Source: Parvibaculum sp. (GTDB lineage Bacteria > Pseudomonadota > Alphaproteobacteria > Parvibaculales > Parvibaculaceae). Taken from it: a stretch of DNA of 64,000 nucleotides. The position numbers were made by a program, and so were the translations under genes. The notes under the pieces are model-generated. The model searched no databases and had not been told where the DNA came from. It worked only from the letters and a program-made list of their open reading frames with translations. Position 1 is the first letter of the stretch. Each line of letters begins with the position of its first letter. The stretch covers positions 992,001 to 1,056,000 of the forward strand of contig JAUSMV010000030.1 of the NCBI GenBank assembly GCA_030645235.1, read 5' to 3'. Positions 13,048 to 29,876 of this stretch are shown piece after piece.

Positions 13048-13065
13048 GAAATGCTCCTAAAACAA

Positions 13066-13093
13066 AAGGCCCGTGAGTTTCCTCACGGGCCTT
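13066..13093 (-). terminator. Intrinsic terminator of the thiolase gene
   Basis: A perfect 12-bp stem AAGGCCCGTGAG/CTCACGGGCCTT with a 4-nt loop. On the minus strand it is followed by TTGTTTT. It lies just after the thiolase stop and only 19 nt before the MaoC start codon, so it could also attenuate MaoC expression. Confidence 0.82.
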
Positions 13094-13114
13094 GAGCTTA
13101 ACAGGTGAATTGGC

Positions 13115-14600: not shown

Positions 14601-15023
14601 ATGACCGCCTCCCCCTTCCCTGCCGGATTTACACAGGTTCAAACCGAGGGTTTTGGCGGCTTTGCCGGTCCTGTGATGGGCGGCACGGACGATAAAGGTC
14701 CGCTCTTCCTCATGGATATTGCCTATCAACACCTCAACGGGGCGGATCGTTTGCATGGCGGCATGATGATGAGCCTGATGTCGATTGTGATGGGCGAAGT
14801 CGCCGCCGCGACCGCGAAGGTCAAAGACGCCTCTGCTGTCACGCGGCCCTTATCGTTGAACTGCGATTTTGTCAGCGCGGGCGAGACGGATGAGCGCATT
14901 GAAGGCCGCGCCGAAGTCACGCGCGCGACGCGCTCTGTGATGTTCATTTCAGGCACGCTCGCGGTCGGCCCGCGCGTGTTGATGACGGCGACGGGCGTTT
15001 ATGCAATCAAGGCCGCAGAATAA
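14601..15023 (+). CDS. PaaI-type hotdog thioesterase
   Basis: A 140-residue single-hotdog protein predicted to hydrolyse acyl-CoA or aryl-CoA thioesters. The central-helix motif NGADRLHGGMMMSLMSIVMGEVA corresponds to the PaaI HGG segment. TRPLSLNCDFVSAGETDERIEGRAEV forms the following strands. The stop codon overlaps the ATG of the next gene (TAATG), so the two homologous thioesterases are translationally coupled. The upstream 283 bp separates it from the divergent thiolase and holds nothing I could identify. The substrate is unknown. Confidence 0.82.
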   Translation: MTASPFPAGFTQVQTEGFGGFAGPVMGGTDDKGPLFLMDIAYQHLNGADRLHGGMMMSLMSIVMGEVAAATAKVKDASAVTRPLSLNCDFVSAGETDERIEGRAEVTRATRSVMFISGTLAVGPRVLMTATGVYAIKAAE

Positions 15024-15493
15024 TGACTGAAAGCGATGTGACCCACCCGCTGCACGGACGGACGCCCCTGACATGTCCGCGCGATGTGACACCGCCCGCA
15101 GGCTTTGTCTCGCAGGAGCTGCACGATCCGTTTGAAGCCCATATGGGACCACTGTTTGAACAGATCAACGCGGACGGCTCACGCGTTTTTGCTTTCATTG
15201 CCGATGAGCGCCATCTGCGCGCCGATGGCTCCGTGCATGAAGGTATGATGATGACCTTTGCTGACGCCTTCTTAGGTGGTGCCGCATGGCGCGGATCGGG
15301 CGGGAAACCCTGCGTCACAATGAGTTTGCAGGCGAGTTTTCTCGCCGATGCCAAACAGGGCGACGTGATCGAGTGCCGCACCAAAGTTGAAAAGCAAACG
15401 CGCTCGGTGATGTTTGTCTCGGCCTCCTTCACTGTCAAAGGCGAGCCGGTGATGACGGCCACGAGCTTGTGGAAGGTGCTTGGCGAGCGTTGA
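15023..15493 (+). CDS. PaaI-type hotdog thioesterase, coupled paralogue
   Basis: A 156-residue hotdog thioesterase similar to its upstream neighbour: HEGMMMTFADAFLGGAAW aligns with the HGGMMMSL segment of the first protein, and RSVMFVSASFTVKGEPVMTAT aligns with RSVMFISGTLAVGPRVLMTAT. The overlap of stop and start codons suggests that the two polypeptides are made in fixed ratio and might form a hetero-oligomer (inference). In this copy Glu replaces the first Gly of HGG. It is followed 45 nt later by a GFA-family gene. Confidence 0.82.
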   Translation: MTESDVTHPLHGRTPLTCPRDVTPPAGFVSQELHDPFEAHMGPLFEQINADGSRVFAFIADERHLRADGSVHEGMMMTFADAFLGGAAWRGSGGKPCVTMSLQASFLADAKQGDVIECRTKVEKQTRSVMFVSASFTVKGEPVMTATSLWKVLGER

Positions 15494-15949: not shown

Positions 15950-16807
15950 ATGGCGATCAATTACGAACAACTGATGGCGTCGAAATCGTCGGGGCAGGAA
16001 TTTACCTATACCGACCGCGAGACGATGCTTTATGCGCTTGGCATCGGCTTTGGCCGCGATCCGATGAACACGAAGGAACTTCCCTTTGTGTATGAAAAAA
16101 ATCTCGTCACCGTGCCCACCATGTCGAGCGTCATCTCATGGGGCGCGGGTAATATGCGCGACAGCGGCATCAATTATCTGATGGTGGTGCATGGTGAGCA
16201 GAAGCTTGTGATGCACAAGCCGCTGCCGGTCGCCACGACGATCAGCGTCGACACGCGCGTTGTCGGCGTCTGGGACAAGGGCGCGGATAAAGGCGCGATT
16301 GTTGTGAGCGAGACGAATATCTCGGACAAGAAAACCGGCGACAAGCTCTGCACCATGACGGGCACGACATTTGCGCGCGGCGACGGCGGCTTTGGCGGTC
16401 CGCGCGAAGGTGCACCTGTGCCGCATGTGATGCCTGAGCGCCAGCCCGACATGACGGTGGAAGTGGATACACGTCCCGATCAGGCCTTGCTTTATCGTCT
16501 GTCCGGCGACCGCAATCCGCTGCATTCAGATCCTGATATTGCCAAAGCGGCAGGCTTCCCACGTCCGATCCTGCACGGGCTTTGCACCTATGGTTCATGC
16601 TGCCGCGCGATCATCTCGTCGCCCGTTTGCGACTATGATCCGACAAAGATCACAGGCTTCGATGTGCGTTTCTCCTCGCCCGTGTTTCCCGGCGAGACGA
16701 TTGCTGTCGATATCTGGAAAGACGGCAACATCGTGTCCTTCCGCGCCCGCGTGAAGGAACGCGACGTGGTTGTCATCAACAATGGTAAGGCAACGCTGCG
16801 CGCCTGA
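15950..16807 (+). CDS. MaoC-domain 2-enoyl-CoA hydratase (MFE-2/hydratase-2 type)
   Basis: A 285-residue double-hotdog hydratase like the hydratase part of peroxisomal multifunctional enzyme 2. The N-terminal hotdog is non-catalytic (about residues 1-150). The C-terminal hotdog carries the hydratase-2 motif YRLSGDRNPLHSDP, followed by AGFPRPILHGLCTYG. It converts trans-2-enoyl-CoA to (R)-3-hydroxyacyl-CoA. The ATG at 15950 was chosen because it follows the GFA stop by one base and starts the family N-terminus MAINYEQL; longer reading in this frame runs into the GFA gene. Confidence 0.9.
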   Translation: MAINYEQLMASKSSGQEFTYTDRETMLYALGIGFGRDPMNTKELPFVYEKNLVTVPTMSSVISWGAGNMRDSGINYLMVVHGEQKLVMHKPLPVATTISVDTRVVGVWDKGADKGAIVVSETNISDKKTGDKLCTMTGTTFARGDGGFGGPREGAPVPHVMPERQPDMTVEVDTRPDQALLYRLSGDRNPLHSDPDIAKAAGFPRPILHGLCTYGSCCRAIISSPVCDYDPTKITGFDVRFSSPVFPGETIAVDIWKDGNIVSFRARVKERDVVVINNGKATLRA

Positions 16808-16910: not shown

Positions 16911-17357
16911 ATGGATAAACGGGTTCAGGCTTTGCTGATTGTGAACGGCGCGCTGGTTCTGCTCGCAGGTTACATTTCGGGTTTTCCTTACGGCACGGCG
17001 GTCGCCGAACAGATCGCCAGCGGCACAGACGGGATCGTCGCCTCAGTGCGCGCATGGCATATGGCGCATCTCGAAGGCGTGCTGAACGGCATGCTGATGA
17101 TCGCGGTCGCCGCCGTCGCCGTCCAACTCGCGATGACGAAGCTCATCGAGAAGGTGATCTTTTGGGGGCTCGTCGTCGCGGGCTGGACCAATGTGGTCGC
17201 CTCGAACCTCTCAGCGCTCACAGGCGGGCGCGGCACGGGCGTGACGGGCCTCGACTGGAACACGTTTAACTTCGTCGTGTTCATGGCAGGCGTCATCGGT
17301 GCTTTTGCCGCTGCCATTGCGCTGGCCTTGGCCGCGTGGCGGGCAGCGAAACGGTAA
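16911..17357 (+). CDS. Styrene-oxide-isomerase-like (StyC family) membrane protein
   Basis: A 148-residue protein with four hydrophobic segments (about 7-24, 59-75, 83-100, 118-142). It resembles styrene oxide isomerase, a trimeric haem-b membrane enzyme that rearranges epoxides to aldehydes: AHLEGVLNGMLMIAVA matches AHSGPALNGMMVIAVA, including the presumed haem-ligand His53 and Asn59 at the same spacing, and GWTNV matches GWANV. From memory of the published StyC structure, the active-site Asp95 and Tyr103 correspond here to Ala90 and Ser98, so activity may differ. GGGGGGAGA precedes ATG 16911. No styrene genes are nearby; the preceding MaoC gene may be co-transcribed. Confidence 0.65.
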   Translation: MDKRVQALLIVNGALVLLAGYISGFPYGTAVAEQIASGTDGIVASVRAWHMAHLEGVLNGMLMIAVAAVAVQLAMTKLIEKVIFWGLVVAGWTNVVASNLSALTGGRGTGVTGLDWNTFNFVVFMAGVIGAFAAAIALALAAWRAAKR

Positions 17358-17378
17358 CTAGAAGCGACTGTTCCTTCC

Positions 17379-17494
17379 CCCTCCCCCCTTGAGGGGGAGG
17401 AGGGAACGCGAAGCGTTCCGGGAGGGGGGTAAACCGCAAATTCTGCACTTGCCGCTTACCCCCCTCCCTAACCCTCCCCCTCAAGGGGGGAGGG
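17379..17494. repeat. Nested inverted-repeat intergenic element
   Basis: Two arms form an inverted repeat. A 22-bp block at 17379-17400 (CCCTCCCCCC-TTGA-GGGGGAGG) recurs inverted at 17473-17494, and a block GGAGGGGGGTAA at 17421-17432 recurs inverted at 17456-17467. Each 22-bp block is itself a hairpin. The left arm carries an extra small palindrome AACGC-GAA-GCGTT (17405-17417) where the right arm has five bases. The element fills the gap between the SOI-like gene and the AraC gene. It looks like a dispersed palindromic repeat and may terminate transcription. Confidence 0.8.
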
Positions 17495-17566
17495 AAATAA
17501 CACTTTGGCAGAAAATGCTTCTTCTTTGGCATTTCTGCCATGAGGCGGCGGGGTTAGGCTTGGGCC

Positions 17567-18622
17567 ATGAACATTCATGCGCCCGATCACTCCCCCGCCC
17601 CGCCTGCCCCGCCCCTGCGGGTGATGATGCTCGGCTTTGACGACGCGCAGATCCTCGACATTGCGGGGCCGGTGCAGCTTTTCACCGCCGCCTTGCGCGC
17701 CGACGAGACGCCGCATTACGCCGTCGAGCTCATCGCCAAAGTGAAGGGGCCGATGGTGACGACGAGCGGTCTCACGCTTTATGCGGCGCGTGGTTTTGAC
17801 GAGATCAGCGACGATGATCTCGCAGGTCTCGATACGTTTCTCATCTCAGGCGGACAGGGTACGCGGGCACTTCAGCATGACGAGGCGACGCTCGCTTTCA
17901 TCAGACGGGTCCACGCCCGTGCCCGGCGCACGGCGTCGATTTGCACCGGCGCTATTTTGCTCGCCGCTGCCGGTCTCCTTGACGGCAAGTCCGCAACAAC
18001 GCATTGGGCCTATGCGCCAAAGCTTGCGCGCGACTATCCGAACGTGCAGGTCGATGGCGATGCGATTTTCACGCGCGCGGGAAATATGTTCACCTCGGCG
18101 GGCGTTACCGCAGGCATGGACCTTGCGCTGGCGCTCATCGAAGATGATCTTGGCCGCGACACGGCGCTCGCCATCGCGCGCTATCATGTGATGTATCTGA
18201 TGCGACCGGGCGGGCAATCGCAATATTCAGCACAGCTTGCCGCGCAGGCGGTTGACGATGAACGCATTGCGCAAGTGTGCTCCTACATTATCGACAATCC
18301 GCGCGCTGATCTCACCGTGCCGCATCTGGCCGGCATCGCCCGCATGTCGGAGCGCAACTTTGCACGGCGCTTTGCCGAGAATGCCGCGATGACACCTGCG
18401 CTCTTTGTCGAGCGTGCAAGGCTTGATGAGGCCCGCCGTCGCTTGTCGGATGCCCGTGTGCCGCTCGAACGTGTGGCGCATGAAGCGGGCTTCGGACAGG
18501 CCGAACGGATGCGCCGCGCTTTCCTGAAACATCTCGGCGTCACGCCCAACCGCTACCGCGAACGCTTTCGCACCACACGCCGCCCCACAACGCTTTTGCA
18601 GGACATGAGCCATGACATCTAA
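17567..18622 (+). CDS. GlxA family AraC-type regulator with DJ-1/PfpI N-terminal domain
   Basis: A 351-residue transcription factor. Residues ~18-200 form a DJ-1/PfpI (GATase1-like) ligand-binding domain with Cys126 in the elbow SICTGAILLA. Residues ~240-335 form two AraC HTH motifs (LTVPHLAGIARMSERNFARRF and VPLERVAHEAGFGQAERMRRAF). GlxA-type regulators sense metabolites, and several control catabolism of amino acids, nitriles or betaines. Its 3' end overlaps by 11 nt the start of a homologous stand-alone DJ-1/PfpI gene, implying a common function and translational coupling. The target genes are unknown; the downstream hydrolase/hotdog cluster is a candidate. Confidence 0.9.
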   Translation: MNIHAPDHSPAPPAPPLRVMMLGFDDAQILDIAGPVQLFTAALRADETPHYAVELIAKVKGPMVTTSGLTLYAARGFDEISDDDLAGLDTFLISGGQGTRALQHDEATLAFIRRVHARARRTASICTGAILLAAAGLLDGKSATTHWAYAPKLARDYPNVQVDGDAIFTRAGNMFTSAGVTAGMDLALALIEDDLGRDTALAIARYHVMYLMRPGGQSQYSAQLAAQAVDDERIAQVCSYIIDNPRADLTVPHLAGIARMSERNFARRFAENAAMTPALFVERARLDEARRRLSDARVPLERVAHEAGFGQAERMRRAFLKHLGVTPNRYRERFRTTRRPTTLLQDMSHDI

Positions 18623-19247
18623 GCCCCACACAGCCGAACGCACCATTGGCATTTTGCTTTTTGATGATGCGGAGGAATTGGATTTCGTCGGGCCTTATGA
18701 GGTCTTCACGATGTCGAATGAAATGTATGGCTATGCGGGCTCAAAGCAGCGTGACAAGGTGGTGCTGATTTCCGAGACGGGCGCAACCGTCACCTGCGCC
18801 AAGGGCATGCGCGTTGAAGCCCATTGCTCATTTGAGAACGCGCCGAAGCTCGACGTGCTGCTCATTCCCGGCGGTCAGGGCACGCGGGCCGAGATCAATA
18901 ACAAGCCTTTGATGGACTGGGTTGTGAAAGTCGCCGCCACCTGCGAATGGGTGACGAGCGTTTGCACCGGCTCGCTCATTCTCACCGCTGCCGGTCCCGC
19001 CAAGGGCAAGCGCGTCACCACGCATTGGGCCTTCATCGATACGCTGCGCGCGCGCAATGAAGCCTCCAAAGTGCTCGACAAGGTGCGTTATGTGCGCGAC
19101 GGCAATGTGCTCACCGCTGCCGGTGTCTCGGCCGGTATCGACATGGCGCTGTGGCTCACAGGACAATTGCATGGCGAGGATCACGCGCGCACGACGCAAC
19201 TCGGCATGCAATATGACCCCGCCCCGCCTTATGCGGCAGCGGTCTGA
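18612..19247 (+). CDS. DJ-1/PfpI family protein (isonitrile hydratase-like)
   Basis: A 211-residue DJ-1/PfpI domain protein with a conserved acidic residue in EELDFVGP (near residue 17) and the nucleophilic Cys in SVCTGSLILTAAG (near 119). This set resembles isonitrile hydratase (InhA), which hydrates isonitriles to N-substituted formamides using Asp17 and Cys101. It is also similar to the ligand domain of the overlapping upstream AraC regulator, suggesting that enzyme and sensor arose by duplication and recognise related molecules. The true substrate is unknown; glyoxalase III- or amidase-like activity is an alternative. Confidence 0.8.
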   Translation: MTSKPHTAERTIGILLFDDAEELDFVGPYEVFTMSNEMYGYAGSKQRDKVVLISETGATVTCAKGMRVEAHCSFENAPKLDVLLIPGGQGTRAEINNKPLMDWVVKVAATCEWVTSVCTGSLILTAAGPAKGKRVTTHWAFIDTLRARNEASKVLDKVRYVRDGNVLTAAGVSAGIDMALWLTGQLHGEDHARTTQLGMQYDPAPPYAAAV

Positions 19248-19322
19248 TACAGGCAACATGCATTAGACGGCGCGGGGAAAATCCGGTCTAATCCGCGGCA
19301 AAACCCATTGGGAGAGCCCGCG

Positions 19323-20285
19323 ATGACCAAGACCCCGTTTGACCCTGCCCTGTTTCGTGCCGATGCCATATCGGCTGAAACCAACGGCATCAACAATGCA
19401 ATCATGCAAATGATGGCCGGTGCACCTGAATGGTGGGACGCAGGCGCCGCTGCCGCACGCAAGGACCGCGCCGAGGGCAAGGGCCCGTTTCCGGCACCCG
19501 TTCTCTCGCCTGACGCGCGCACCATCGAAATCGCGGGCGTCGGCGGCGTCAAAGTGCCCTTGCGCATCATCGCGCCGAAAAACCCGACAGGCGTCTATCT
19601 CCATTGCCATGGCGGCGGCTGGGTGCTGGGGGCGGCAAACCAGCAGGACCCGATGCTGGAACGCATCATCAAACATACAGGCATGGCCTGTGTCAGCGTT
19701 GAATATCGCCTGGCACCCGAACATCCCTATCCCGCCGGACCCGATGATTGCGAGGCGGCGGCCCTTTGGCTCGTCAAAAATGCGAAAGCGGAATTCGGCA
19801 CGGACATTCTCACCATCGGCGGCGAAAGTGCGGGCGGGCATCTTGCCGCCGTCACGATCCTGCGGATGCGCGACAAGCACAATTACAAAGGCTTCAAAGG
19901 CGCCAACCTTGTCTTTGGTGCGTTTGATCTTTCGATGACGCCGAGCCAGAAGCATTTTGGTAACGAACGTCTTGTGCTGCGCACGGTTGACATGGAAAAA
20001 TTCTACGACGCGTTTCTGGGCGACAAGGTCAAACGCCGCGACCCTGATGTGTCACCGCTTTATGCCCGCCTCCACGACATGCCGCCTGCGCTTTTCACCA
20101 TCGGCACACGCGACGCGCTGATGGATGATTCACTCTTCATGTATGCGCGCTGGATCGCGGCGGGCAACGAAGCCGAGCTTGGCGTCTATCCCGGCGGCGC
20201 GCACGGGTTTGTGGCTTTCCCCGGTGATCTGTCACGCGCGGCCAATGCGGCGCAGGATGCGTTCCTCAAGCGCGTCATTGGTTGA
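19323..20285 (+). CDS. Alpha/beta hydrolase, hormone-sensitive-lipase type
   Basis: A 320-residue esterase/lipase of bacterial family IV. It has the oxyanion-hole CHGGGWVLG, the catalytic Ser in GGESAGGHL, an acidic residue in [10 protein letters not shown], and His in GGAHGF. It hydrolyses carboxylic esters of unknown identity. ATG 19323 was preferred over a TTG at 19308 because GGGAGAG stands just upstream. The stop is 4 nt before the first of three double-hotdog genes, so the hydrolase and thioesterases probably form one operon, perhaps acting in sequence on an ester and its CoA derivative. Confidence 0.88.
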
Positions 20286-20289
20286 TCCG

Positions 20290-21228
20290 ATGCCGCTCGA
20301 CAAGGATGGATATTTTCCGAGCTTTCGCGGCTCGGTCAATACATGGGAATGCGACGACAATGCCCATATGAATGTGCAGTTCTATGTCGCGCGCGCGTCG
20401 GATGGTGCGTTCTTTTTGCGCCATGAGCTGGGCCTTGCGCCATCGGCGATCCGCGCCTCAAACCGCACGATGATTGCGCTCGAAGAGCATTATCGCTTTC
20501 ACCGAGAGCTTTTTGCAGGCGACATGATTTCGATGCGCACGCGCCTGATCGACATGCGCGAGAAAACTTTGGTCGTGTTGCATGAGCTGGTGAATGAAGG
20601 CACAGGAGAGCTCTCGGCCAGCGTGGTCGCGGTCAGCGCCTCTTTCGACACTGAGACGCGCAGGCTCGTGCCATGGGAGGCGGACACGCTCGCCAAGGGT
20701 CGTGCGCTGATCGGCCCGCTGCCGGACTATGCCGAAGCGCGGTCGGTGAAGCGCGAGACGCGGCTGGCGGACCTCACGCTGGCCGAGGCTGAGGCGCGCG
20801 GCTTTATCGAGATTTATCGCGGCGCGGTCCATCCCCAGCATTGCGACCAGTTCGGCCATATGGGCACGCAGCATTATATTGCGCGCTATTCGGACGGGTC
20901 AGGCCATCTCTGGCAGGGTCTGGGGCTGGAAAAGAGCCGCCTCATTGCCGAGCGGCGCGGCAGCGTGGTGCTCGAACAGCGGTTGAACTATATTCGCGAG
21001 GTCCTGTCGGGCGATATTCTGATCGTGAAATCGGCGCTGATCGAAGTGGCCCCCAAGACGATCCGCATGTGTCATTTCATGTTCAACGGCGAGACAGGTT
21101 TGCTCGCCGCCACCAGCGAAGTCATCGCCGTGCTGCTCGATCTCGATACACGCCGCGCGGTGAATTTTTCAGACGCCGAGCGCGCGCGGCTTGAAACCCA
21201 TATCCGTTCGGTTGCGAAAGTAGCGTGA
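20290..21228 (+). CDS. Double-hotdog acyl-CoA thioesterase-like protein, copy 1
   Basis: A 312-residue protein made of two 4HBT-type hotdog halves. Each half starts with the family motif around a catalytic Asp: N-half ECDDNAHMNVQFYVARASDG (near residue 20) and C-half CDQFGHMGTQHYIARYSDG (near 187). Each continues with an LEEHYRFHREL or LEQRLNYIREV strand and a C-terminal strand. It likely cleaves acyl-CoA or acts on a 4-hydroxybenzoyl-CoA-like thioester; the substrate is unknown. Its stop codon overlaps the next start (TGATG). It is the first of three tandem homologous genes behind an HSL-type hydrolase. Confidence 0.83.
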   Translation: MPLDKDGYFPSFRGSVNTWECDDNAHMNVQFYVARASDGAFFLRHELGLAPSAIRASNRTMIALEEHYRFHRELFAGDMISMRTRLIDMREKTLVVLHELVNEGTGELSASVVAVSASFDTETRRLVPWEADTLAKGRALIGPLPDYAEARSVKRETRLADLTLAEAEARGFIEIYRGAVHPQHCDQFGHMGTQHYIARYSDGSGHLWQGLGLEKSRLIAERRGSVVLEQRLNYIREVLSGDILIVKSALIEVAPKTIRMCHFMFNGETGLLAATSEVIAVLLDLDTRRAVNFSDAERARLETHIRSVAKVA

Positions 21229-22133
21229 TGACAACCAATATGATCGATACGTTTCGCGGCTATGTCTCGGTGCAGGAATGCGACGAGATGGGGCATATGA
21301 ACATTCAGCATTATATCGCCAAGACATCGGACTCGTCCTTTCATCTGCGCGATGCGCTGGGCCTCTCGGCGTCGGATCAGGTGACAAGCGGGCTTGGCTA
21401 TGTCGCGCTTGAACATCACATCCGTTTTCACCGTGAGCTGCGCGTCAGTGATCTCGTCGGCGTGCGCGCCGGCATTGTCGAGACGGGCAACAGGACGCTC
21501 ATCAAATATCAGGAAATGCGCGAGCTGCTGGATGACCGGCTCGCGGCCACCTTTGTTGTCACTTGCGGCTGTCTTGACCTCAATACGCGAAGGCTTACCC
21601 CATGGCCCGATGCGGCGCAGGCGAAGATGGCGGAGATCACAACTGCATTGCCCGACTATGCGCAACCGCGCGGGCTGCCGCCCGCCGCGATGGCGCGCAA
21701 TGTCTCACGTGAGCGCGCTGATGCCGACAATATGTTTGAGAGCAACCGCTCGGCTGTGAACCCGTGGGAATGTGATACCAACGATCACATGAATGCGCGC
21801 TTCATCATGTCGCGTTTTTCCGATGCGCAGGGACATATGTGGGCCGCCGCCGGTCTCGGCCGTCATGATCAGGCGGCGCTGGGGCTTGCGACCGCAACGG
21901 TTGAAATGCGGTTGATCTATTTCAGCGAGCTCAATGCGGGCGATACGCTTTATGTGCGCACGGGGCTTGTCGAAGCAGCGGAGAAAACGCTGCGCTATCG
22001 CCACTGGATGTTTAATGCCAAAACCCATGCGCCGGTTTGCGCCGCTGAAGGTTTGGGCCTTTTGTTCAGCCGTGAAACGCGCAAGGCGGTCGCGATCCCC
22101 GCGCAGGTCGCCAAGCGTTTCCGTGCTGTTTGA
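21228..22133 (+). CDS. Double-hotdog acyl-CoA thioesterase-like protein, copy 2
   Basis: A 301-residue protein homologous to copies 1 and 3, again with two 4HBT halves. The N-half motif is ECDEMGHMNIQHYIAKTSD (near 19) and the C-half motif is ECDTNDHMNARFIMSRFSD (near 179). Both halves keep the Asp...His-Met-Asn pattern and so may be active. ATG 21228 overlaps the stop of copy 1; a GTG three bases upstream is less likely. The halves are about as different from each other as from the other copies, so duplication within the gene preceded duplication of the gene (inference). Confidence 0.83.
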   Translation: MTTNMIDTFRGYVSVQECDEMGHMNIQHYIAKTSDSSFHLRDALGLSASDQVTSGLGYVALEHHIRFHRELRVSDLVGVRAGIVETGNRTLIKYQEMRELLDDRLAATFVVTCGCLDLNTRRLTPWPDAAQAKMAEITTALPDYAQPRGLPPAAMARNVSRERADADNMFESNRSAVNPWECDTNDHMNARFIMSRFSDAQGHMWAAAGLGRHDQAALGLATATVEMRLIYFSELNAGDTLYVRTGLVEAAEKTLRYRHWMFNAKTHAPVCAAEGLGLLFSRETRKAVAIPAQVAKRFRAV

Positions 22134-22159
22134 TTTTGTTTTTGATTTGAGGATTTCCG

Positions 22160-23080
22160 ATGGCTGAGATGATTGATGTGGCGCGCTCCAGCGTACAGAC
22201 GTGGCAGTCCGACCAGATGGGGCACATGAATGTGCAATTCTATCTGGAACAGGCAACGCACGGCCTCGCCGCGCTTGCCGTGCATCTCGGGCTGGGCCCG
22301 CGTTTCATCGCAGCGGAAAACGTCAAACTCCTTGCGCGCGAGCATCATGTGCGGTTTCTGCGTGAGCAGCGCCCCGGTGCGCCGATCACGGTGCGCGCGG
22401 GTGTGCTGACGGTGCAGGATTATGGCCTGCGTGCTTATTTTGAGATGTACAACACAGTCTCGGAAGAAGTCGCGGCGACCTTTGCCGTCGATGTTGAATT
22501 GCTCGACGTCGATAGCCGCGAGACAAAGCCGATCCCCGCCCGCGCCAAGGCGGCGGCGAAAGCCCTCATTATCGAATTGCCCGCGCATGGCGCACCGCGC
22601 GGGCTCGAGATTTATCCGCCGCGCGAGGCACCGACGCTCAGTGAAGCCGAAGCGATGAAACTCGTTTTCACATGGCAGGGCGAAGTGCTGGCCGATCAAT
22701 GCGACGAGCAGGGCTTCCTCCTGCCGCGTCATTTCATGGGCTATGTGTCGGACGCCATTCCCAATCTGCTCGGCAAAACACGCGGCGACGACCGTTCGCA
22801 AAATTCAAAGGTCGGCGGCGCGGCGCTCGAATATCGTTTTCATTATCACGCCTATCCCAAAGCCGGTGACGTGCTGACGCTCAGGAGCGGTCTGAAGATG
22901 GTGGGACCGAAGACTTATATTTGGGGCCATTGGCTCTTTGATCTTGAAACCGGCAAGTCGGTGGCCACCGCCGAAGCCGTGGCGATTGCGCTTGATCTCG
23001 AAACGCGCAAAGCCATTCCCATTCCCGAAGAGATGCGCCTACGGCTTGAAGCGATGGTCGCGCCGGGTCTCGGCGTCTGA
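22160..23080 (+). CDS. Double-hotdog acyl-CoA thioesterase-like protein, copy 3 with degenerate C-terminal half
   Basis: A 306-residue homologue of the two preceding proteins. The N-half has the intact motif QSDQMGHMNVQFYLEQ (near 18). In the C-half the motif reads QCDEQGFLLPRHFMGY (near 180), where the His-Met-Asn triplet is replaced by Phe-Leu-Leu, so this half is probably structural. A GAGGAT ribosome-binding site precedes ATG 22160, 26 nt after copy 2. It is the last gene of the cluster and is followed by a palindromic element at 23108-23200. Confidence 0.8.
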   Translation: MAEMIDVARSSVQTWQSDQMGHMNVQFYLEQATHGLAALAVHLGLGPRFIAAENVKLLAREHHVRFLREQRPGAPITVRAGVLTVQDYGLRAYFEMYNTVSEEVAATFAVDVELLDVDSRETKPIPARAKAAAKALIIELPAHGAPRGLEIYPPREAPTLSEAEAMKLVFTWQGEVLADQCDEQGFLLPRHFMGYVSDAIPNLLGKTRGDDRSQNSKVGGAALEYRFHYHAYPKAGDVLTLRSGLKMVGPKTYIWGHWLFDLETGKSVATAEAVAIALDLETRKAIPIPEEMRLRLEAMVAPGLGV

Positions 23081-23107
23081 GTTCCGCGCTCCCCGCATCC
23101 CCCCTAT

Positions 23108-23200
23108 CCGTCATGGCCGGACTTGATCCGGCCATCCACGTCTTTGGTGTCTGAGATTAGGGCAAGACGTGGATACGCGGGTCAAGCCCGCGCATGACGG
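23108..23200. repeat. Cruciform intergenic repeat (Rhizobiales-type palindrome)
   Basis: A 93-bp element with outer ends CCGTCATG/CATGACGG, an inner stem CATCCACGTCTT/AAGACGTGGAT, and two side hairpins GCCGGACTTGATCCGGC and CGCGGGTCAAGCCCGCG. This arrangement matches the common 'CGTCATGGCCGG...CATGACG' intergenic repeats of Rhizobiales and relatives. It lies between the convergent copy-3 thioesterase and the 89-residue unknown gene and may terminate both. Confidence 0.85.
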
Positions 23201-23203
23201 CAA

Positions 23204-23473
23204 TTATAATGCCTGCTTCGCATTGAGCCGCCTTGCCCGGATGATGAACCCGCGCGCGCCGGTTATGCGCTGCAAGGTCTTCATGCCGCGCACCAGCGGG
23301 TAAATCCGCTCCATGTCATGCAGCTTATGCGCTTCTGAGGCGGCGGCGCGGGTCACATTGTAAAGCGCCAGCAATTCCTCATTGCTCATCGCGTGCAAGG
23401 TCTCTTCCTTGGCGGCGCGGTTCGCGTCAGGATCGTCGAAAGTCAGGGGCTGTTGCGGTTCAGGCTTTTGCAT
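23204..23473 (-). CDS. Hypothetical protein, 89 aa
   Basis: A small, charged, soluble protein that I do not recognise. It has an acidic N-terminus (FDDPDANRAAKEETLHAMSNEELLALYN), a predicted helical centre, and a basic C-terminus (RGFIIRARRLNAKQAL). No signal peptide or membrane segment is seen. Codon use is like the neighbours. It diverges from the acyl-CoA dehydrogenase at 23515 by only 41 bp and is convergent with the thioesterase cluster. It may be real because its composition and length are coherent, but no function can be assigned. Confidence 0.55.
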   Translation of the reverse strand: MQKPEPQQPLTFDDPDANRAAKEETLHAMSNEELLALYNVTRAAASEAHKLHDMERIYPLVRGMKTLQRITGARGFIIRARRLNAKQAL

Positions 23474-23514
23474 GGTGAGCTAGATTAGCGACAAAAGAAT
23501 TTTGGGGAAACCAA

Positions 23515-24681
23515 ATGACCGGCTTTCTTGATCCTTACCTCAAAGACGATGAACGCGCGGTGCTTGACCGCGCGCGAGGCTTTGGCCAGCGCGTGATGCG
23601 ACCCAATGCGGACCATTGGGAAAGAGGCATGAGTGTGATCGAGGGCATGCACGCGGCGGCGCATGAAGGCCTGCTGCGCCTCGAAGTGCCCCATTCTTTG
23701 GGCGGGCTCGGACATCGTTATCTTTTGAAGCTCGCCATGACCGAAGCCCTGTCGCGTATCGACATGGCTTTCACCTTCGCGATGATCAACACGCAGAATG
23801 TCGCCGCACGGCTCTCGTATAGCAAGACGCGCGCGCATCTTGAAACTCTGGTGCCGGCCCTCACACGTGGCGATCTCTTCGGCGCGACGGCCTTGAGCGA
23901 ACCCAATGCCGGATCAGATTTCGCGGGCATCAAAACTTCCGCGACGAAGGTTGACGGCGGCTGGGTGCTCAATGGTGAGAAGGGCTGGATCACCAATGCG
24001 ACGATTGCCGACCTGTTCATTACCTATGTGCAGACAGATCCATCGGCGGGCTGGCGCGGCATTGCCTGTTTTCTGGTTGATGGCCGCAAGGCGGGTTTCA
24101 CGCGTGTGGCCCCCTATGATATTTTCGGCGGACGTGCGATCGGCGTCGGCGGTTTCAAGCTCGACAATTATTTTGCGGGTGAGGATGATCTCCTCGCGCC
24201 CGCGGGTGAGGCCTTCAAACTCGCGATGCAGGGCGTCAACGGCGCGCGCGTTTATGTGGCCGCCATGTGCGCCGGTCTTCTCGCCGCGAGCCTTGAGACA
24301 GCGGTGGATTACGGGGCAGAGCGTCAGGCCTTCGGCAAGGCGCTCATCAAGCATCAGGGATTGGCGTGGTCGCTCAGTGATGTGGCGACGGACCTCACGG
24401 CCCTGCGCGCATTGACACGGGATGCGGGACTGCTGATTGATGCGCAAAAAGACGCGGTGATGGCGGCAGCGCAGGCAAAATCATTCTCCGGTCGCGTGAG
24501 CGTGGCAGGCGTCACAGCCTGCATTCAGGCGATGGGCGCAGCGGGTCTGCGCACAGAGCATGGGCTTGGACGGCATCTCAGCGCGGCGAAAATTGCAGCC
24601 TTCACCGATGGCTCAAGCGAAATGATGAGCGAGCGCATTGCGGCGGGGCTCACCGCCTCGTTCGGCTCTACTCGCTCGTAA
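23515..24681 (+). CDS. Acyl-CoA dehydrogenase family protein with altered catalytic-base positions
   Basis: A 388-residue acyl-CoA dehydrogenase fold: N-terminal helices to ~120, FAD motif ATALSEPNAGSDFAGIKT (~120-137), LNGEKGWITNA, and C-terminal helices with YGAERQAFGKAL. At the MCAD-type base position (normally Tyr-Glu-Gly-Thr) it has TDGS, i.e. Asp for Glu, and at the LCAD/IVD-type position (normally Glu-Arg) it has GAR. The usual catalytic Glu is therefore missing, and Asp may replace it. The last 14 bases overlap the 3' end of the convergent hydrolase gene. Confidence 0.85.
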   Translation: MTGFLDPYLKDDERAVLDRARGFGQRVMRPNADHWERGMSVIEGMHAAAHEGLLRLEVPHSLGGLGHRYLLKLAMTEALSRIDMAFTFAMINTQNVAARLSYSKTRAHLETLVPALTRGDLFGATALSEPNAGSDFAGIKTSATKVDGGWVLNGEKGWITNATIADLFITYVQTDPSAGWRGIACFLVDGRKAGFTRVAPYDIFGGRAIGVGGFKLDNYFAGEDDLLAPAGEAFKLAMQGVNGARVYVAAMCAGLLAASLETAVDYGAERQAFGKALIKHQGLAWSLSDVATDLTALRALTRDAGLLIDAQKDAVMAAAQAKSFSGRVSVAGVTACIQAMGAAGLRTEHGLGRHLSAAKIAAFTDGSSEMMSERIAAGLTASFGSTRS

Positions 24682-25600
24682 GTCTGGCATCAAGCGCCAG
24701 CATTTCGCGCCGCACGACATCGGGAAATTCCATCGGCAGAAAATGCGTGGCCTGCCCCAAACGCAAGAGTGTCGCCTCAGGGTCGCGCTCGCCCATGATT
24801 TGCGGCGCAGGTGCACGACAGGTCGAGCCGTGGCCTGCATAAATCAACGTCAGCGGCACTTTGAGTTTGTCGAGCGCTTCCCAAATGTCATGGCCCTGCG
24901 CGCGAAAGTTGGCGGCCTCCCAGGCGGGTGCGCAGGACAACTCGATCTGTCCGTCGTCGCGGTTCACCGTGCCGCCCTCGATATAATCGGCAATCATGTC
25001 GTCGGGCCATGTGCGAAACGCACCGCGTCCCTTATAGGCTTTGGCCATCACGGTGCGGTCGGCAAAGACGGCGCGGCGGCGATCGGCCCCATCGGCAAGC
25101 GCCATCGGTCCGCCTTTTTTGCCCATGAGTTTGGCAAGCAGCATCAGGTAACGCGCGAAACGCGGCACCATCACAGGATCAACAAGAATAAGACCGCGCA
25201 CAAGATCGGGACGTTCGGCCGCGACCATCAGGCTCGTCGCGCCCCCCATCGAATGACCGGCAAGCAGCACAGGGCCGCCGGTCTCGGCAACGAGCGGCTC
25301 CAGAAACGCGATGAGATCATCGCGATAAATATACCAGTTGGCATGCGATGCGGGATCGGCAGGCAGACGCGAGAGCCCGTGGCCGCGCGCGTCCCAGGCC
25401 CGGATGTGGAAATGCTTGGCGAGCGGCGACAGAAGCTGGCGATAGGTCATGCCATTAAAGCCATTGGCATGGGCGAAATGAAGCACAGGCTTTTTGTGCT
25501 CGTCCTTCCATTCGAGGAAAGACACCGCCCCGTCGCTCAGCATCAGGCTGCGGCGCACAGGGGCCACATCGGACAATTTAATCGTTGCTGCTGTCGTCAC
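24668..25600 (-). CDS. Alpha/beta hydrolase
   Basis: A 310-residue alpha/beta hydrolase. It has HANGFNG at the oxyanion strand, DARGHGLS, the nucleophile elbow GHSMGG (Ser near 117), and the catalytic His in QATHFLPME. The strand normally ending in the catalytic Asp reads LIYAGHGSTCRAP, with no acid at the expected place, so the third triad member is unclear. It is a soluble esterase or lipase of unknown substrate. It follows the larger hydrolase gene at 25637-26818 by 36 nt on the same strand and is likely part of the same operon with the isomerase gene. Confidence 0.82.
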   Translation of the reverse strand: MTTAATIKLSDVAPVRRSLMLSDGAVSFLEWKDEHKKPVLHFAHANGFNGMTYRQLLSPLAKHFHIRAWDARGHGLSRLPADPASHANWYIYRDDLIAFLEPLVAETGGPVLLAGHSMGGATSLMVAAERPDLVRGLILVDPVMVPRFARYLMLLAKLMGKKGGPMALADGADRRRAVFADRTVMAKAYKGRGAFRTWPDDMIADYIEGGTVNRDDGQIELSCAPAWEAANFRAQGHDIWEALDKLKVPLTLIYAGHGSTCRAPAPQIMGERDPEATLLRLGQATHFLPMEFPDVVRREMLALDARLTSE

Positions 25601-25636: not shown

Positions 25637-26818
25637 TTAAAGCTGGGCAAGCAAACCCTTTTTGGTCAGCCATGTTTTCACGATGCCGACGGCTTCGGCC
25701 ATCTTGTCAGGCTGACCGATATAATAATGCGTTGCGCCCTTCACCTCATGAAATTCTTTGTCATTGTGTTTTACACCGGCGAACAGGCGGGCGGCATGGC
25801 TCGGCGTGCAGGCATCATCCGCGCTGTTTTGAATGACGAGAACCGGCACGGATATGTCACCGGCGCATTTCGGGCCGTCCGCGCGGCTTTCAGCGTAGGA
25901 CCATTGCGACAGCCAGGCGCGGAGCGAGCAGAAGCGGGCAAGTCCGGCAGGCATCATATTGACGATTTTAGGCTCGCCCATGAAACACCAGTTCGGCCCT
26001 TTGCGGTCATTGGGTTCGATCGACGGGTCCATCCAGCGCGGATCGGCCATGGTGCCATGGACCACGAAGCCAAATTCCTCATTGGTGCGGCCCTGACGTT
26101 TCAGGCTGCCGAGTTTCTCTTTGACCCAATTGTCGATTTTCAGCGAGCGCGCAATCTGCGCCGCACGGAAATGGGCCACATAGTCATCGGCAAATTTCGG
26201 CTTGTTCGGGTTCTTCGGATCGTAAAGATCGAGTTCCACAATGCGGTCATCGGGGTTCATCTCATCGCGGATCGACGGGTCGAGCCATTCGGTCAGCGTA
26301 ATCGCGCGGCTGACATGCGCGGCAAGCTGCAACACGGCATCGGCCTTGATGAGTTTCGCACCGACAACATCCACCGCGTCGCCCGCAGGTGTCGCCGTGA
26401 TCCAGGGCTTTTCGGCTTGCGACTGATAGAACATCGAGAGCGAGCCGCCACCGGACCAACCGGCAAGGATCACTTTTTCAAAGCCGAGTTTCTCTTTGGC
26501 ATATTTGATGTACTGACCCAGATCAAGGATCACTTTTTCCATGATCAGCGCGCTGTCATTATGCGGATAGCGGCTCGCGCATGTGAGACAGGGAATACCA
26601 GCCGCCGCAAGCGCATTGGGCATGGGCAGCAGGTTCATCGTGCCGGTCGGATGCATAAAAACAAGAATGGTTTTCGATGTCGAGCCGACAGGTTTCAGAA
26701 ACTGACCTTCAACCACGATCTGATTGAGAGCGCCTGCATAGGTCTCTTTGAAGGCGGCTTGTTCCTGCCAATGCAAATGAAACGGAATGCGCTCAACGGC
26801 GTAGGTGGGCGCGCTCAT
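25637..26818 (-). CDS. Large alpha/beta hydrolase
   Basis: A 393-residue alpha/beta hydrolase with FMHPTGTMNLLP at the oxyanion hole, nucleophile elbow GWSGGGS (Ser near 120), acidic residues in QNSADDACTPSH, and the catalytic His in GATHYYIG. An insertion of roughly 150 residues after the elbow forms a large lid. No signal peptide is seen, so it is cytosolic. The start codon overlaps the stop of the upstream enoyl-CoA isomerase-like gene (ATGA), showing translational coupling; it may act on an acyl-CoA or ester intermediate of that pathway (inference). Confidence 0.82.
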   Translation of the reverse strand: MSAPTYAVERIPFHLHWQEQAAFKETYAGALNQIVVEGQFLKPVGSTSKTILVFMHPTGTMNLLPMPNALAAAGIPCLTCASRYPHNDSALIMEKVILDLGQYIKYAKEKLGFEKVILAGWSGGGSLSMFYQSQAEKPWITATPAGDAVDVVGAKLIKADAVLQLAAHVSRAITLTEWLDPSIRDEMNPDDRIVELDLYDPKNPNKPKFADDYVAHFRAAQIARSLKIDNWVKEKLGSLKRQGRTNEEFGFVVHGTMADPRWMDPSIEPNDRKGPNWCFMGEPKIVNMMPAGLARFCSLRAWLSQWSYAESRADGPKCAGDISVPVLVIQNSADDACTPSHAARLFAGVKHNDKEFHEVKGATHYYIGQPDKMAEAVGIVKTWLTKKGLLAQL

Positions 26819-27627
26819 GCCGAGACCTTTTTGAAATCGGGTTTGCGTTTGTTGAGGAAGGCATCAACCGCCTCGTGATGTTCGGGCGTGGTCCAGCATT
26901 CTTTCAGCGCATCGGTCTCGCGCTTCTGAGCAAGATTAAGGTCTGTGGTGCAGGCATTCTCGGTGAGCAAGGCCTTGGTCATGCGAAGCTGACGCGAAGG
27001 ATTATCAGCAATGAGATTGCCAAGTTCAAAAGCCTTGGTCAGAAGCTCGGCCTGCGGCACGACATATTCGCAGAGGCCTTTGGCTTTCGCTTCGGCAGCG
27101 GGATAAAGGCGGCCTGTCAGCATCATTTCGCTCGCCTGCCCCCAGCCCATGCGGCTCACGAGGAAATGCGACGAGGCAAGTTCCGGCACGATGCCCATTT
27201 TGACAAAGACCAAACCAAAGCGTGCTTCTTCGGCCGCGACGATAATATCAAAGGGCAGGATCATCGTAACGCCGATACCGACCGCGACGCCGTTGACCGC
27301 TGCAATCAAAGGCTTTGAGGAGCGCGTGAGTTTGATCCAGTCAACATTCGCTGGCATGCCGCCGGAGCCGCCTGCCGTGTTCTCGCCGGGGTCTCGGCCA
27401 TCAACGCGGGTTTTGAAAACAGCGTCCACGTCAGCACCGGCGCAGAAACCACGGCCCGACCCCGTCATCACAATCGCGCCGATGTCGCGGTCAGCATTGG
27501 CGTCTTCAATCGCGTGGGCGAGTTCGCCCGCCATATGCGGTGTCCATGCGTTGAGCTTGTCGGGGCGCATCAATGTGATGAGCGCGACCGCACCCTTTTT
27601 TTCAAAGGCGATTTGCTGGTAGGCCAT
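26815..27627 (-). CDS. Enoyl-CoA hydratase/isomerase family protein, probable delta3-delta2-enoyl-CoA isomerase
   Basis: A 270-residue crotonase-fold protein with FCAGADVDAVF as CoA/oxyanion motif. The two Glu of true hydratases are absent: the position in GGGCE is Thr121 (VGIGVTM) and that in GQPE is Phe141 (FGLVF). Instead Glu149 in GIVPELASSHF aligns with the catalytic Glu of peroxisomal-type enoyl-CoA isomerases (SPEGCSS). It therefore likely shifts 3-enoyl-CoA double bonds to position 2 for beta-oxidation of unsaturated acids. ATG 27627 has GGGGAGGGA just upstream; longer reading adds no domain. It is first in a likely three-gene operon with two hydrolases. Confidence 0.85.
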   Translation of the reverse strand: MAYQQIAFEKKGAVALITLMRPDKLNAWTPHMAGELAHAIEDANADRDIGAIVMTGSGRGFCAGADVDAVFKTRVDGRDPGENTAGGSGGMPANVDWIKLTRSSKPLIAAVNGVAVGIGVTMILPFDIIVAAEEARFGLVFVKMGIVPELASSHFLVSRMGWGQASEMMLTGRLYPAAEAKAKGLCEYVVPQAELLTKAFELGNLIADNPSRQLRMTKALLTENACTTDLNLAQKRETDALKECWTTPEHHEAVDAFLNKRKPDFKKVSA

Positions 27628-27767: not shown

Positions 27768-28556
27768 ATGGATCTGCATCTCAAAGGGAAAACAGTCTTC
27801 ATCGCAGGTGCGAGCCGTGGCATCGGCCTTGGCATCGCGCGGGCTTTTGCCAAAGAAGGCGCGAAAGTGGCCCTGACCGGACGCGGTGAGGCGTCGCTTG
27901 ATGCCGCTCAGGCGCTCATCGTGGCGGAGGGCGCCGACAAGAACAACATCATCACCATTGCGGGCGACATGACCGCTTCGGCGGTGATTGCCGAGGCGCT
28001 TGATGCGACGGAGAAAAAACTTGGCCCCGTCCATTGCGCCATCGGCAATGTCGGGCTTGGCCGCGCGCCTTTGGGCTTTGATGTGTCGGACGAAGATTGG
28101 GAAGCCGACGTCAAACAAAATCTGCTCGGCGGCGTCTATCTCGCACGCGAAGCCCTGAAACGGATTCTCGCGCGACCGGCGGAACAACGCGAGGGCGCGA
28201 ACCTCATTCTCATTTCGTCCATTGCCGGTGTCGATGCTCTTGGTACACCGCTTACATATTCCGCGACAAAATCCGCGATCAATCACACGACGAAGTCACT
28301 CGCCAAAATCGTCGGCAAAGAAAATGTGCGCGTCAACGCGATTGCGCCGGGCAACATCATCTTTGAAGGCGGCGACTGGCAGGCGCGTGTGGATGAGCGG
28401 CCCGACGCATGGGGCCGCTGGATCAAACGCGAAGTGGCGCTCCGCCGCTTCGGCAAGGTGGAAGAAATTGCGGACGCCGCTTTGTTCCTTGCCAGTTCGC
28501 GGGCGAGCTTTATCACCGGCGAAATTTTTGTCGTCGATGGCGGTCAGGTCCGCTGA
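27768..28556 (+). CDS. Short-chain dehydrogenase/reductase
   Basis: A 262-residue classical SDR: nucleotide motif AGASRGIGLGIA (~12-23), ISSIAG with the catalytic Ser, and YSATK with Tyr and Lys. The C-terminal SSRASFITGEIFVVDGG is typical. The substrate is unknown. ATG 27768 starts the family N-terminus MDLHLKGKTVFIAG; an upstream in-frame start at 27681 would overlap the divergent isomerase promoter. The intergenic space to the divergent gene at 27627 is 140 bp and should hold both promoters. Confidence 0.88.
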   Translation: MDLHLKGKTVFIAGASRGIGLGIARAFAKEGAKVALTGRGEASLDAAQALIVAEGADKNNIITIAGDMTASAVIAEALDATEKKLGPVHCAIGNVGLGRAPLGFDVSDEDWEADVKQNLLGGVYLAREALKRILARPAEQREGANLILISSIAGVDALGTPLTYSATKSAINHTTKSLAKIVGKENVRVNAIAPGNIIFEGGDWQARVDERPDAWGRWIKREVALRRFGKVEEIADAALFLASSRASFITGEIFVVDGGQVR

Positions 28557-28772: not shown

Positions 28773-29876
28773 TCAGGCCAAAACCAGCCTGAAATTCTTT
28801 CGTGTGAGACGCGGAAAGGCCGGAAATTCCATCAGCGTTTCACCGCCGGATTGACGCAAAAGATCAGCCGCGCGCAGCTTGTCGTCTTCTTCAAGCGAGG
28901 CGATAAAATCAAGCGGACGCTGAAGCATCCAAAGTTCAAACGGAAAAATTGCACGTTGCTCTTTGACATTACCGAGTGTGAATTCATGCATGCCAAGTGC
29001 GCGCGGCACATCAGCACCGGACTCAAGAGCCGCATTGTCGGCACGCCAATGCACCAGCTTGTGTGCGGTATCAACAAGCACAGGCATCATCTCGCGCATC
29101 ATGCGCGCGAGAACAGGAATGAGTGTTTCAGGAATTTCATCGCGCGGCAGAAACTCACCACCTTTCGGATGCGGTGGTGTCATCATGCGCTCAACCCATT
29201 TAGCGACATGCGGCGCGCGCGCTTTCATCAGCTCGCCGGATGCGGGATCGCGATATTGATGCGCGTAGAGCGGACCGACAAGTCCGAAGTCGCCGATGGA
29301 AGGACGCGTACCGAATAAGAACTCATGCGCTTTGAAATGCACATCCAGCTCATCAAGCAGACCTTCATAAGACTGCTCAATCGCGGCTTCTGTGTTGGGT
29401 GTCACACCGAGAAAAGGAAGCGCACCGGCAAAGGGTTTTGAGATTTTGAGACCCGCTTCGCGTTGCAACTCAGCGGGTTTTCCGGGCAGGCTCATCTTGC
29501 CGAACTCGGCAATGGCGAAATCATAATTGCGGTTCCAGCGATAATGCATCGCCGTAATTTTCAGCCATTCATCGCCATAGACCTCAAGCAACAATGCGGC
29601 GAGGCGCTGGCGCACACCTGTCGGATAGATAGGTGCGGCGGGGAAGCGCTTTTCCAACTCGTCAATAATCTCGGTGGAGTCCTGCAGCGTCTCATCTTCC
29701 GGGGTGATCACAACAGGGATCACCGGCCAGCCGACGCGCGGCAGGATGACGTTGCGATAGACGTCAGGCGTGTTCAGAACTTCAGAAAAAGGGATGCGTT
29801 TGTAACGCAGATAGGCGCGAACCTTGCCGGAGAAATAGCTGACTTCTGATCCGTAAAGTGTGTAGCCGAGCGTCAT
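28773..29876 (-). CDS. Glutathione S-transferase family protein, extended
   Basis: A 367-residue protein with a thioredoxin-like GST N-domain (residues ~3-85; SYFSGKVRAYLRYK, VPVV-like WPVIPVVI, then DSTEIIDEL for glutathione binding) and an all-helical C-domain (GTRPSIGDFGLVGPLYAH is the N-capping region). It is longer than the usual 200-230 residues: about 130 extra C-terminal residues include FPFELWMLQRPLDF. It probably conjugates or isomerises a lipid or xenobiotic. GGGAGA precedes ATG 29876. It stands alone, convergent with the SDR. Confidence 0.87.
   Translation of the reverse strand: MTLGYTLYGSEVSYFSGKVRAYLRYKRIPFSEVLNTPDVYRNVILPRVGWPVIPVVITPEDETLQDSTEIIDELEKRFPAAPIYPTGVRQRLAALLLEVYGDEWLKITAMHYRWNRNYDFAIAEFGKMSLPGKPAELQREAGLKISKPFAGALPFLGVTPNTEAAIEQSYEGLLDELDVHFKAHEFLFGTRPSIGDFGLVGPLYAHQYRDPASGELMKARAPHVAKWVERMMTPPHPKGGEFLPRDEIPETLIPVLARMMREMMPVLVDTAHKLVHWRADNAALESGADVPRALGMHEFTLGNVKEQRAIFPFELWMLQRPLDFIASLEEDDKLRAADLLRQSGGETLMEFPAFPRLTRKNFRLVLA

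Follow-up and report, generated by a model that had tools for sequence, protein, structure and literature searches.

Thioesterases of the YbaW–YbgC type are single-hotdog members of the 4HBT_2 family (PF13279) with an aspartate in the first loop; the available part of PMC2698920 names Asp20 of a YbaW protein as catalytic, and describes double hotdogs as generally retaining one active site and accepting bulkier substrates. A double-hotdog pseudo-dimer fold is shared by acyl-ACP thioesterases (4gak, FatA) and mouse ACOT7. Carnitine 3-dehydrogenase provides a further point of comparison through its C-terminal part, which we take to be a betainyl-CoA thioesterase domain, as does the acyclic terpene utilisation (Atu) operon, with its geranyl-CoA carboxylase, at the level of the pathway.

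The locus described here lies in the window, the whole 64,000-nucleotide stretch of Parvibaculum sp. DNA that was analysed, and contains three consecutive genes, A, B and C. Their products resemble the YbaW–YbgC-type thioesterases in family and in the first-loop aspartate, but differ from them in having two fused domains, the second partly degenerate, and in being encoded by three tandem genes. The features of the region are as follows.

14601–15023 and 15023–15493, plus strand: two adjoining single-hotdog 4HBT genes, in the upstream part of the region
15950–16807, plus strand: MaoC/hydratase-2-type hydratase
17567–18622, plus strand: GATase1-type AraC regulator, FtrA/GbdR-like, scoring under the cut-offs for both
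18612–19247, plus strand: DJ-1/PfpI-domain protein, stand-alone and sensor-like, similar to the N-terminal part of AraC regulators of the GATase1 type
19323–20285, plus strand: HSL-family esterase (Abhydrolase_3)
20290–21228, plus strand: gene A, 312 aa, double hotdog with two 4HBT_2 domains, putative acyl-CoA thioesterase
21228–22133, plus strand: gene B, 301 aa, double-hotdog paralogue
22160–23080, plus strand: gene C, 306 aa, double-hotdog paralogue, more widely distributed than A and B
23204–23473, minus strand: small conserved protein, 89 aa, without a Pfam match
23515–24681, plus strand: acyl-CoA dehydrogenase, the next plus-strand gene past C
24668–25600, minus strand: alpha/beta hydrolase (ABH1), convergent
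25637–26818, minus strand: alpha/beta hydrolase, 393 aa, cluster-conserved
26815–27627, minus strand: enoyl-CoA hydratase/isomerase
27768–28556, plus strand: SDR oxidoreductase
28773–29876, minus strand: GST-domain protein, cluster-conserved
37280–39526, minus strand: FadB-type multifunctional protein
39537–40742, minus strand: thiolase

Organization of the gene triplet

PF13279 matched two stretches in each of the three proteins, with scores of 144.6 (A), 142.2 (B) and 98.3 bits (C) against a cut-off of 25.5, and six of the ten domain matches found by profile search in the whole genome fall inside these genes. Together with pairwise identities of 31–35%, this bears out the original prediction of three homologues with two 4HBT domains each. 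The open reading frames also confirm the tight packing that it had described: A and B meet in a TGATG at 21226–21230, where the stop codon of A (TGA, 21226–21228) and the start codon of B (ATG, 21228) share one base, C follows B after 26 nt, and the esterase ends 4 nt before A, a spacing of operon type, with the AraC and DJ-1/PfpI genes upstream as claimed. An alternative GTG start is possible for B, 3 nt upstream of the ATG. No RNA families were found at positions 17000–24000, promoter and terminator scans remained near shuffle levels, and a palindrome located 3' of gene C occurs in a single copy within the window.

Compared with two relatives, A, B and C each display dN/dS ratios of 0.07–0.23. 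These ratios, together with the presence in other genera of the same gene order A-B-C and of an equally close A/B junction (−4 to +30 nt), indicate that the arrangement is more than chance.

Conservation of the triplet and of its neighbourhood

The three genes fall into separate clades, one each for A, B and C, and their order is conserved. Across 40 Parvibaculaceae genomes the genes are neither kept nor lost as a set: 20 genomes have three matches, 13 have two, four have one and three have none. A is missing from 14 of the 27 same-genus genomes, 11 of which retain B and C (one B copy being partial), B is also missing from some genomes, less often than A, and only a single copy is present in both g2 genomes and in one same-genus genome. 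Gene C is found alone across Proteobacteria, its solo homologues in Gammaproteobacteria having unrelated gene surroundings. The triplet was not found in the class and phylum samples, where homologues are mostly single. Homologues that are usually single and scattered, without conserved co-occurrence, had been named as the outcome that would speak against a catabolic system; this pattern is true of most other families, but not of Parvibaculaceae, whose conserved co-occurrence supports the prediction of a conserved, uncharacterised and probably catabolic cluster. Among the literature matches listed there was no paper on this triple-hotdog module.

Neighbours were counted over 80 loci (33 + 25 + 22), including two (L116 and L143) without a detected hotdog gene, and the counts are lower bounds because many loci stop at contig ends. 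As the gene finder was incomplete at some loci, overlooking among others A, B or C at L066, L069, L072 and L079, family counts were taken from homologue searches instead; minus-strand reference proteins from the gene lists are trimmed by one codon at the protein start. The HSL-family esterase is present in at least 21 and the ABH1 hydrolase in at least 24 of the 33 close C loci, the latter also in several single-copy relatives. In 13 of 20 loci from the same genus, a TetR gene is the immediate 5' neighbour of A or B, and homologues of the FadB-type protein and of the thiolase adjoin the double-hotdog gene in several relatives.

Two functional ideas had accompanied the original prediction. The first was a hetero-oligomer, which in its strict form would be one enzyme needing all of A, B and C. 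The A/B stop–start overlap and the conserved order are in keeping with it, and association is also hinted at by a gene fusion: L209 (family f93) encodes a three-hotdog protein, the first domain of which is the reciprocal best match of the single-hotdog gene of the L207 operon, and the third that of the second half of the L207 double-hotdog gene. However, many genomes lack A or, less often, B, and C also stands alone, which makes an obligate complex unlikely; in addition, A and C are each modelled as a complete pseudo-dimer. The second idea, that the proteins handle successive thioesters after ester cleavage, found no direct support in the gene content: none of the cluster genes scanned was identified as an acyl-CoA ligase, and the partners that recur are acyl-CoA dehydrogenases and hydratases, joined in relatives by a geranyl-CoA-type carboxylase (GCC).

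Predicted fold and active site

AlphaFold2 predicts a complete pseudo-dimer for A and for C, and the nearest folds are those of acyl-ACP thioesterases. Alignment with the acyl-ACP thioesterase 4gak gave Z 25.6 for A (rmsd 2.5, 242 aligned) and Z 24.7 for C (rmsd 3.0, 247 aligned), and across acyl-ACP thioesterases and ACOT7 the Z-scores were 23–26, at sequence identities of about 8–16% in the structural alignments. The first hotdog retains an Asp-x3-His-x-Asn motif in the alignments of all three proteins. Residues H26, N28, H67, R69 and E73 of this hotdog (A numbering) are conserved in every row (A 11/11, B 13/13 and C 45/45), as is D22 save for one gap (11/11, 13/13 and 44/45, respectively). 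The second hotdog has decayed at D186, H190 and N192, most strongly in C, where the motif is degenerate.

The same fold could in principle serve another chemistry, with A, B and C being non-thioesterases that use the double hotdog for hydration, acyl transfer or LnmK-like decarboxylation. LnmK, an acyltransferase/decarboxylase according to its PDB title, shares the fold of the models at Z 20.7 (A) and 20.4 (C), and hydratase-2 enzymes reach about 16–17; both are outscored by acyl-ACP thioesterases and ACOT7, and the sequence profile search matches YbaW/YbgC-type thioesterases, the closest solved chain being 2hlj, of unknown function. We consider such a departure from thioester hydrolysis quite improbable.

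Still less probable is a role for the cluster in breaking down a compound like carnitine or betaine, by means of a GATase1-AraC sensor and betainyl-CoA-type thioesterases. The C-terminal part of carnitine 3-dehydrogenase (NF005716) is the best NCBIfam match and the nearest curated sequence model of all three proteins, the nearby regulator resembles GbdR/FtrA, members of the GATase1-AraC group govern carnitine and betaine genes according to the available part of PMC5806209, so that both systems have such a regulator nearby, and at locus L093 a beta-keto acid cleavage enzyme lies inside the hotdog operon. On the other hand, the NF005716 scores of 73.4 (A), 83.7 (B) and 61.6 bits (C) are far under the cut-off of 592, A, B and C lack the dehydrogenase domain, and their neighbours are instead an acyl-CoA dehydrogenase, hydratases and alpha/beta hydrolases. 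No carnitine 3-dehydrogenase over the cut-off was found in the genome, in which a separate single-domain gene on contig C55 is a nearer match. With the enzyme not found and the scores low, a carnitine pathway was rejected.

That A, B and C are acyl-ACP thioesterases making free fatty acids, like FatA/FatB, is very improbable. In its favour are the nearest folds and PF01643 scores just over the cut-off of 23.7 for B (26.4) and C (23.8); against it, PF01643 is unreported for A at E 0.1, and the neighbourhood is CoA-dependent and catabolic rather than one of fatty acid synthesis.

Association of relatives with geranyl-CoA-type carboxylase operons

Thirteen of the sampled class genomes have both a double-hotdog gene and a gene for a GCC-type carboxylase. 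In six of them the two are no more than 7 kb apart; in the other seven they are far apart or on different contigs. Such proximity is far from chance, by a probability calculated for a uniform genome of 4 Mb, which is a rough guide only. The identity line for GCC type, 61%, was chosen after seeing the search results, and Fisher's test treats the genomes as unrelated, several GCC genomes sharing families. GCC is distinguished by the absence of a three-residue insertion and by Gly instead of Phe (PMC4673880), a signature present in the L158, L093 and L207 carboxylases; those of L158 and L093 score 686.7 and 792.5 bits with 5ikl versus 503.6 and 546 with MCC 3u9r.

The operons of these relatives run SDR-GCCbeta-ACAD-(ECH)-GCCalpha-ACAD-(ECH)-TetR-hotdogs, and many Parvibaculum clusters retain the TetR gene but not the carboxylase. 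The likeness to the Atu operon is that relatives of A, B and C close operons with a GCC-type carboxylase, acyl-CoA dehydrogenases, a hydratase and a TetR gene; the difference is a thioesterase step, to which the hotdog link points and which is absent from the Pseudomonas gene list in the available part of PMC4847356. AtuA is found in all six GCC-linked relatives' genomes, though outside these operons. The window's genome differs from the Atu pathway in both respects: it has no match to AtuA (PF07287) and no GCC-type carboxylase (none at E 1e-165), the best match, at about 48%, being of MCC type with the MCC insertion and Phe. A complete acyclic terpene pathway in this genome was therefore rejected, and the link to branched substrates, which rests on relatives, may not carry over to it.

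Proposed function

On the basis of sequence and models, we tentatively propose that the paralogues A, B and C are thioesterases that release CoA from bulky or methyl-branched acyl-CoAs and divide the substrates among themselves, an assignment that is quite possibly correct. The three would be ancient duplicates within the 4HBT_2 hotdog type. Each would form a pseudo-dimer from one covalent chain, in which probably only the N-terminal hotdog has a working active site, and this would leave room in the binding tunnel for a bulky acyl chain. They may be made together, behind the esterase and the GATase1-type AraC regulator, in a cluster of beta-oxidation type. Their job would be to remove CoA from acyl-CoAs poorly handled by ordinary beta-oxidation (methyl-branched, isoprenoid-like or ring-bearing), the three copies sharing out substrates by size or branching; CoA would be returned and the acid excreted or re-used.

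Members of Parvibaculum live on oil and detergents and are known for partial oxidation; they carry out the initial step in degrading detergents and leave chain-shortened acids to other bacteria, so that some activity must free those acids from CoA. For this release the conserved triple module of putative thioesterases is a concrete and testable candidate. For P. lavamentivorans, the available parts of PMC3368416 and PMC3746432 describe a shortening of alkyl chains and the excretion of about 50 acids. The link to sulfophenyl acids belongs to the physiology of one species and is not a property of these genes.

A broader scenario, which we regard as unlikely, is that the GCC-type operons of Alphaproteobacteria carry a modular hotdog array dedicated to freeing CoA from methyl-branched or isoprenoid acyl-CoAs, and that Parvibaculaceae, having lost the carboxylase, switched from carboxylating branched acyl-CoAs to hydrolysing them and excreting the acids, which would account for the partial oxidation typical of Parvibaculum. 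In this scenario the array takes several forms, namely a double hotdog, a single plus a double (the f41 type), a fused triple, two doubles and three doubles, and Parvibaculaceae have as many as six hotdogs, spread over three proteins.

Organization of the gene cluster

The open reading frames of the window include three tandem double-hotdog genes, here A, B and C, at the positions originally predicted.
20290-21228, + strand: A
21228-22133, + strand: B
22160-23080, + strand: C
14601-15493: two single-hotdog 4HBT genes, touching at 15023

Each protein of the triplet comprises two PF13279 domains, in agreement with the two 4HBT domains claimed for it, and an HSL esterase, a DJ-1/PfpI-domain protein and an AraC regulator, here classed as GATase1-type, are present upstream as reported. 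The window's genome contains ten PF13279 domain matches, six of which form the pairs of A, B and C, the remaining four lying singly in four separate places. Farther upstream of the AraC gene, the touching pair brings the number of thioesterase-like genes within 8.5 kb to five. The DJ-1/PfpI protein (18612-19247) is a stand-alone domain, the adjoining AraC regulator having the same kind of N-terminal domain, and many relatives carry two stand-alone DJ-1/PfpI genes. The esterase (19323-20285) is very close to the solved esterases 8q03 (ORF30) and 5jd5 (MGS-MilE3), the substrate data of which could narrow the pathway of the cluster. A GC-rich palindrome, found once in the window, lies directly 3' of C (23115-23140), and a 1327-residue open frame (32979-36962) has a start resembling that of a secreted repetitive or autotransporter-like protein.

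Predicted structure and active site

The AlphaFold2 models of A and C have mean pLDDT values of 96.6 and 95.4 (alignments of 69 and 56 sequences, respectively), and the best structural matches of both are acyl-ACP thioesterases, with 4gak at Z 25.6, rmsd 2.5 over 242 aligned residues for A and Z 24.7, rmsd 3.0 over 247 for C. Mouse ACOT7 (Z 23.7 and 23.1) and LnmK (Z 20.7 and 20.4) follow, while a sequence profile ranks 2hlj, 5eo2 and YbaW highest among solved chains. Asp22, His26, Asn28, His67, Arg69 and Glu73 of the first hotdog are conserved in nearly all aligned rows (11 of A, 13 of B and 45 of C); in the same alignment the counterpart of this motif in the second hotdog has decayed, most severely in C, and Glu229, His262 and Arg288 are invariant. 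According to PMC2698920, proteins with a double hotdog generally retain a single active site and accept bulkier substrates; the pattern of motif retention and decay seen in the alignment would fit such a one-site pseudo-dimer.

Distribution and history of the triplet

Of 40 genomes of the family, 20 have three matches to the C profile, 13 have two, four have one and three have none, the matches within a genome lying side by side by coordinates except at contig breaks (G009, G021). At loci with all three genes called, A and B are separated by -4 to +30 nt, and B and C by 26 to 99 nt. Three matches occur in all seven genomes of genus g3 and in one of two of g5, A is present in 13 of 27 same-genus genomes, and one genome (G013) has B and C and lacks A. 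In the class sample of 385 genomes, 44 have a match, and 39 of these, all outside the family, have no triplet; adjacent pairs occur by coordinates in four (G087, G156, G259, G344). In the phylum sample, the window's own genome aside, a match at 1e-40 is found in eight of 398 genomes, single each time. The conserved adjacency looked for thus recurs within one family, to which the triplet belongs, whereas elsewhere the genes are mostly single and widely scattered.

In a tree of 95 double-hotdog proteins A, B and C form three separate groups, A and B being nearer each other and C grouping with relatives from Gammaproteobacteria and other Alphaproteobacteria. The three proteins of a g5 locus (L144) fall into the respective groups, which makes the triplet an old one. 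Loss is the best reading of its patchy spread, with A most often absent, followed by B. All three genes are under purifying selection, with dN/dS against two relatives of 0.07-0.23, rough values given a dS near or above 1.

Neighbourhood and link to carboxylase operons

At 33 loci with a C at least 57% identical, where all counts are lower bounds, an alpha/beta hydrolase (24668-25600 in the window) accompanies C in at least 24, the esterase in at least 21, B in at least 19, AraC and DJ-1 in at least 16 each, a second hydrolase and an acyl-CoA dehydrogenase (ACAD) in at least 15 each and A in at least ten. A TetR gene (TetR_N) lies directly 5' of A or B in 13 of 20 same-genus loci, preceded in 11 of them by an enoyl-CoA hydratase (ECH); neither precedes A or B in the window or its nearest relatives.

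In several relatives a biotin-dependent carboxylase shares an operon with a double-hotdog gene. The beta subunits at loci L158 and L093 score 686.7 and 792.5 bits against geranyl-CoA carboxylase (GCC; 5ikl) versus 503.6 and 546 against methylcrotonyl-CoA carboxylase (MCC; 3u9r), and these enzymes and that of L207 are of GCC type by the rule in PMC4673880, having neither the three-residue insertion nor the Phe. Taking at least 61% identity to the L093 beta subunit as the definition, 25 of 385 class genomes carry the GCC type; a double-hotdog gene is present in 13 of these versus 31 of the 360 remaining genomes (p = 1.9e-7 by Fisher's test, uncorrected for kinship) and lies within 7 kb of the GCC beta gene in six of the 13, from four families (f2, f4, f41, f44).

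The operon at L207, L215 and L216 runs SDR-GCCbeta-ACAD-GCCalpha-ACAD-ECH-TetR-single hotdog-double hotdog, the single hotdog of L215 and L216 being a match over 128-129 residues with no called gene. In L093 and L217 an ECH stands between ACAD and GCCalpha, TetR having none in front of it, and the L218 operon is reduced. From these orders, the ECH-TetR-hotdog end is the part that many Parvibaculum clusters keep. In the L093 operon a beta-keto acid cleavage enzyme (12495-13361; KCE-like, below cut-offs) lies beside the double-hotdog gene, and the two could act in place of a thiolase step.

AtuA is present in all six genomes with a hotdog-linked GCC-type carboxylase, and none was seen inside their hotdog operons. 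At the two loci examined (L219, L220) its neighbourhood holds a second carboxylase, so either enzyme may be the one that handles geranyl-CoA, and 'GCC type' here denotes a sequence signature only. This second enzyme is more divergent and GCC-like, that of L219 being nearer GCC than MCC, yet weaker (571.6 bits); as the same genomes also carry the hotdog-linked one, these bacteria may have two GCC-like systems. A search of the window's own genome returned one MCC-type and one more distant carboxylase, with no GCC-type enzyme and no AtuA.

Proposed function

A, B and C are very likely to be acyl-thioester hydrolases; that their substrates are bulky or branched acyl-CoAs is put forward far more tentatively. 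The three thioesterases would release CoA from such substrates, probably serving as a relief valve and acid-release step in partial oxidation. The nearest physiology is that of P. lavamentivorans, which, according to passages of PMC3368416 and PMC3746432 that do not name the three genes, trims alkyl chains and releases the short-chain intermediates, about 50 sulfophenylcarboxylates and related compounds; the tie to acid excretion is an inference. The fold and superfamily are already known and the triple arrangement is unusual; the link to GCC-type operons was not found among the papers listed by the literature searches.

An apparent hotdog fusion

A longer hotdog gene occurs in genome G328 of family f93.
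L209, 9720-11075: triple-hotdog gene, 451 codons

Its first domain and the single-hotdog protein of L207 are reciprocal best matches, as are its third domain and the C-terminal half of the double hotdog at that locus (identities of 35-37% in a small comparison set), so that the protein looks like a fusion of the two L207 genes. This hints that neighbouring hotdog proteins are able to associate, perhaps in a loose, non-obligate form of the hetero-oligomer originally suggested. Genome G405 has overlapping hotdog matches in one 468-codon open frame, probably a triple hotdog of the same kind.
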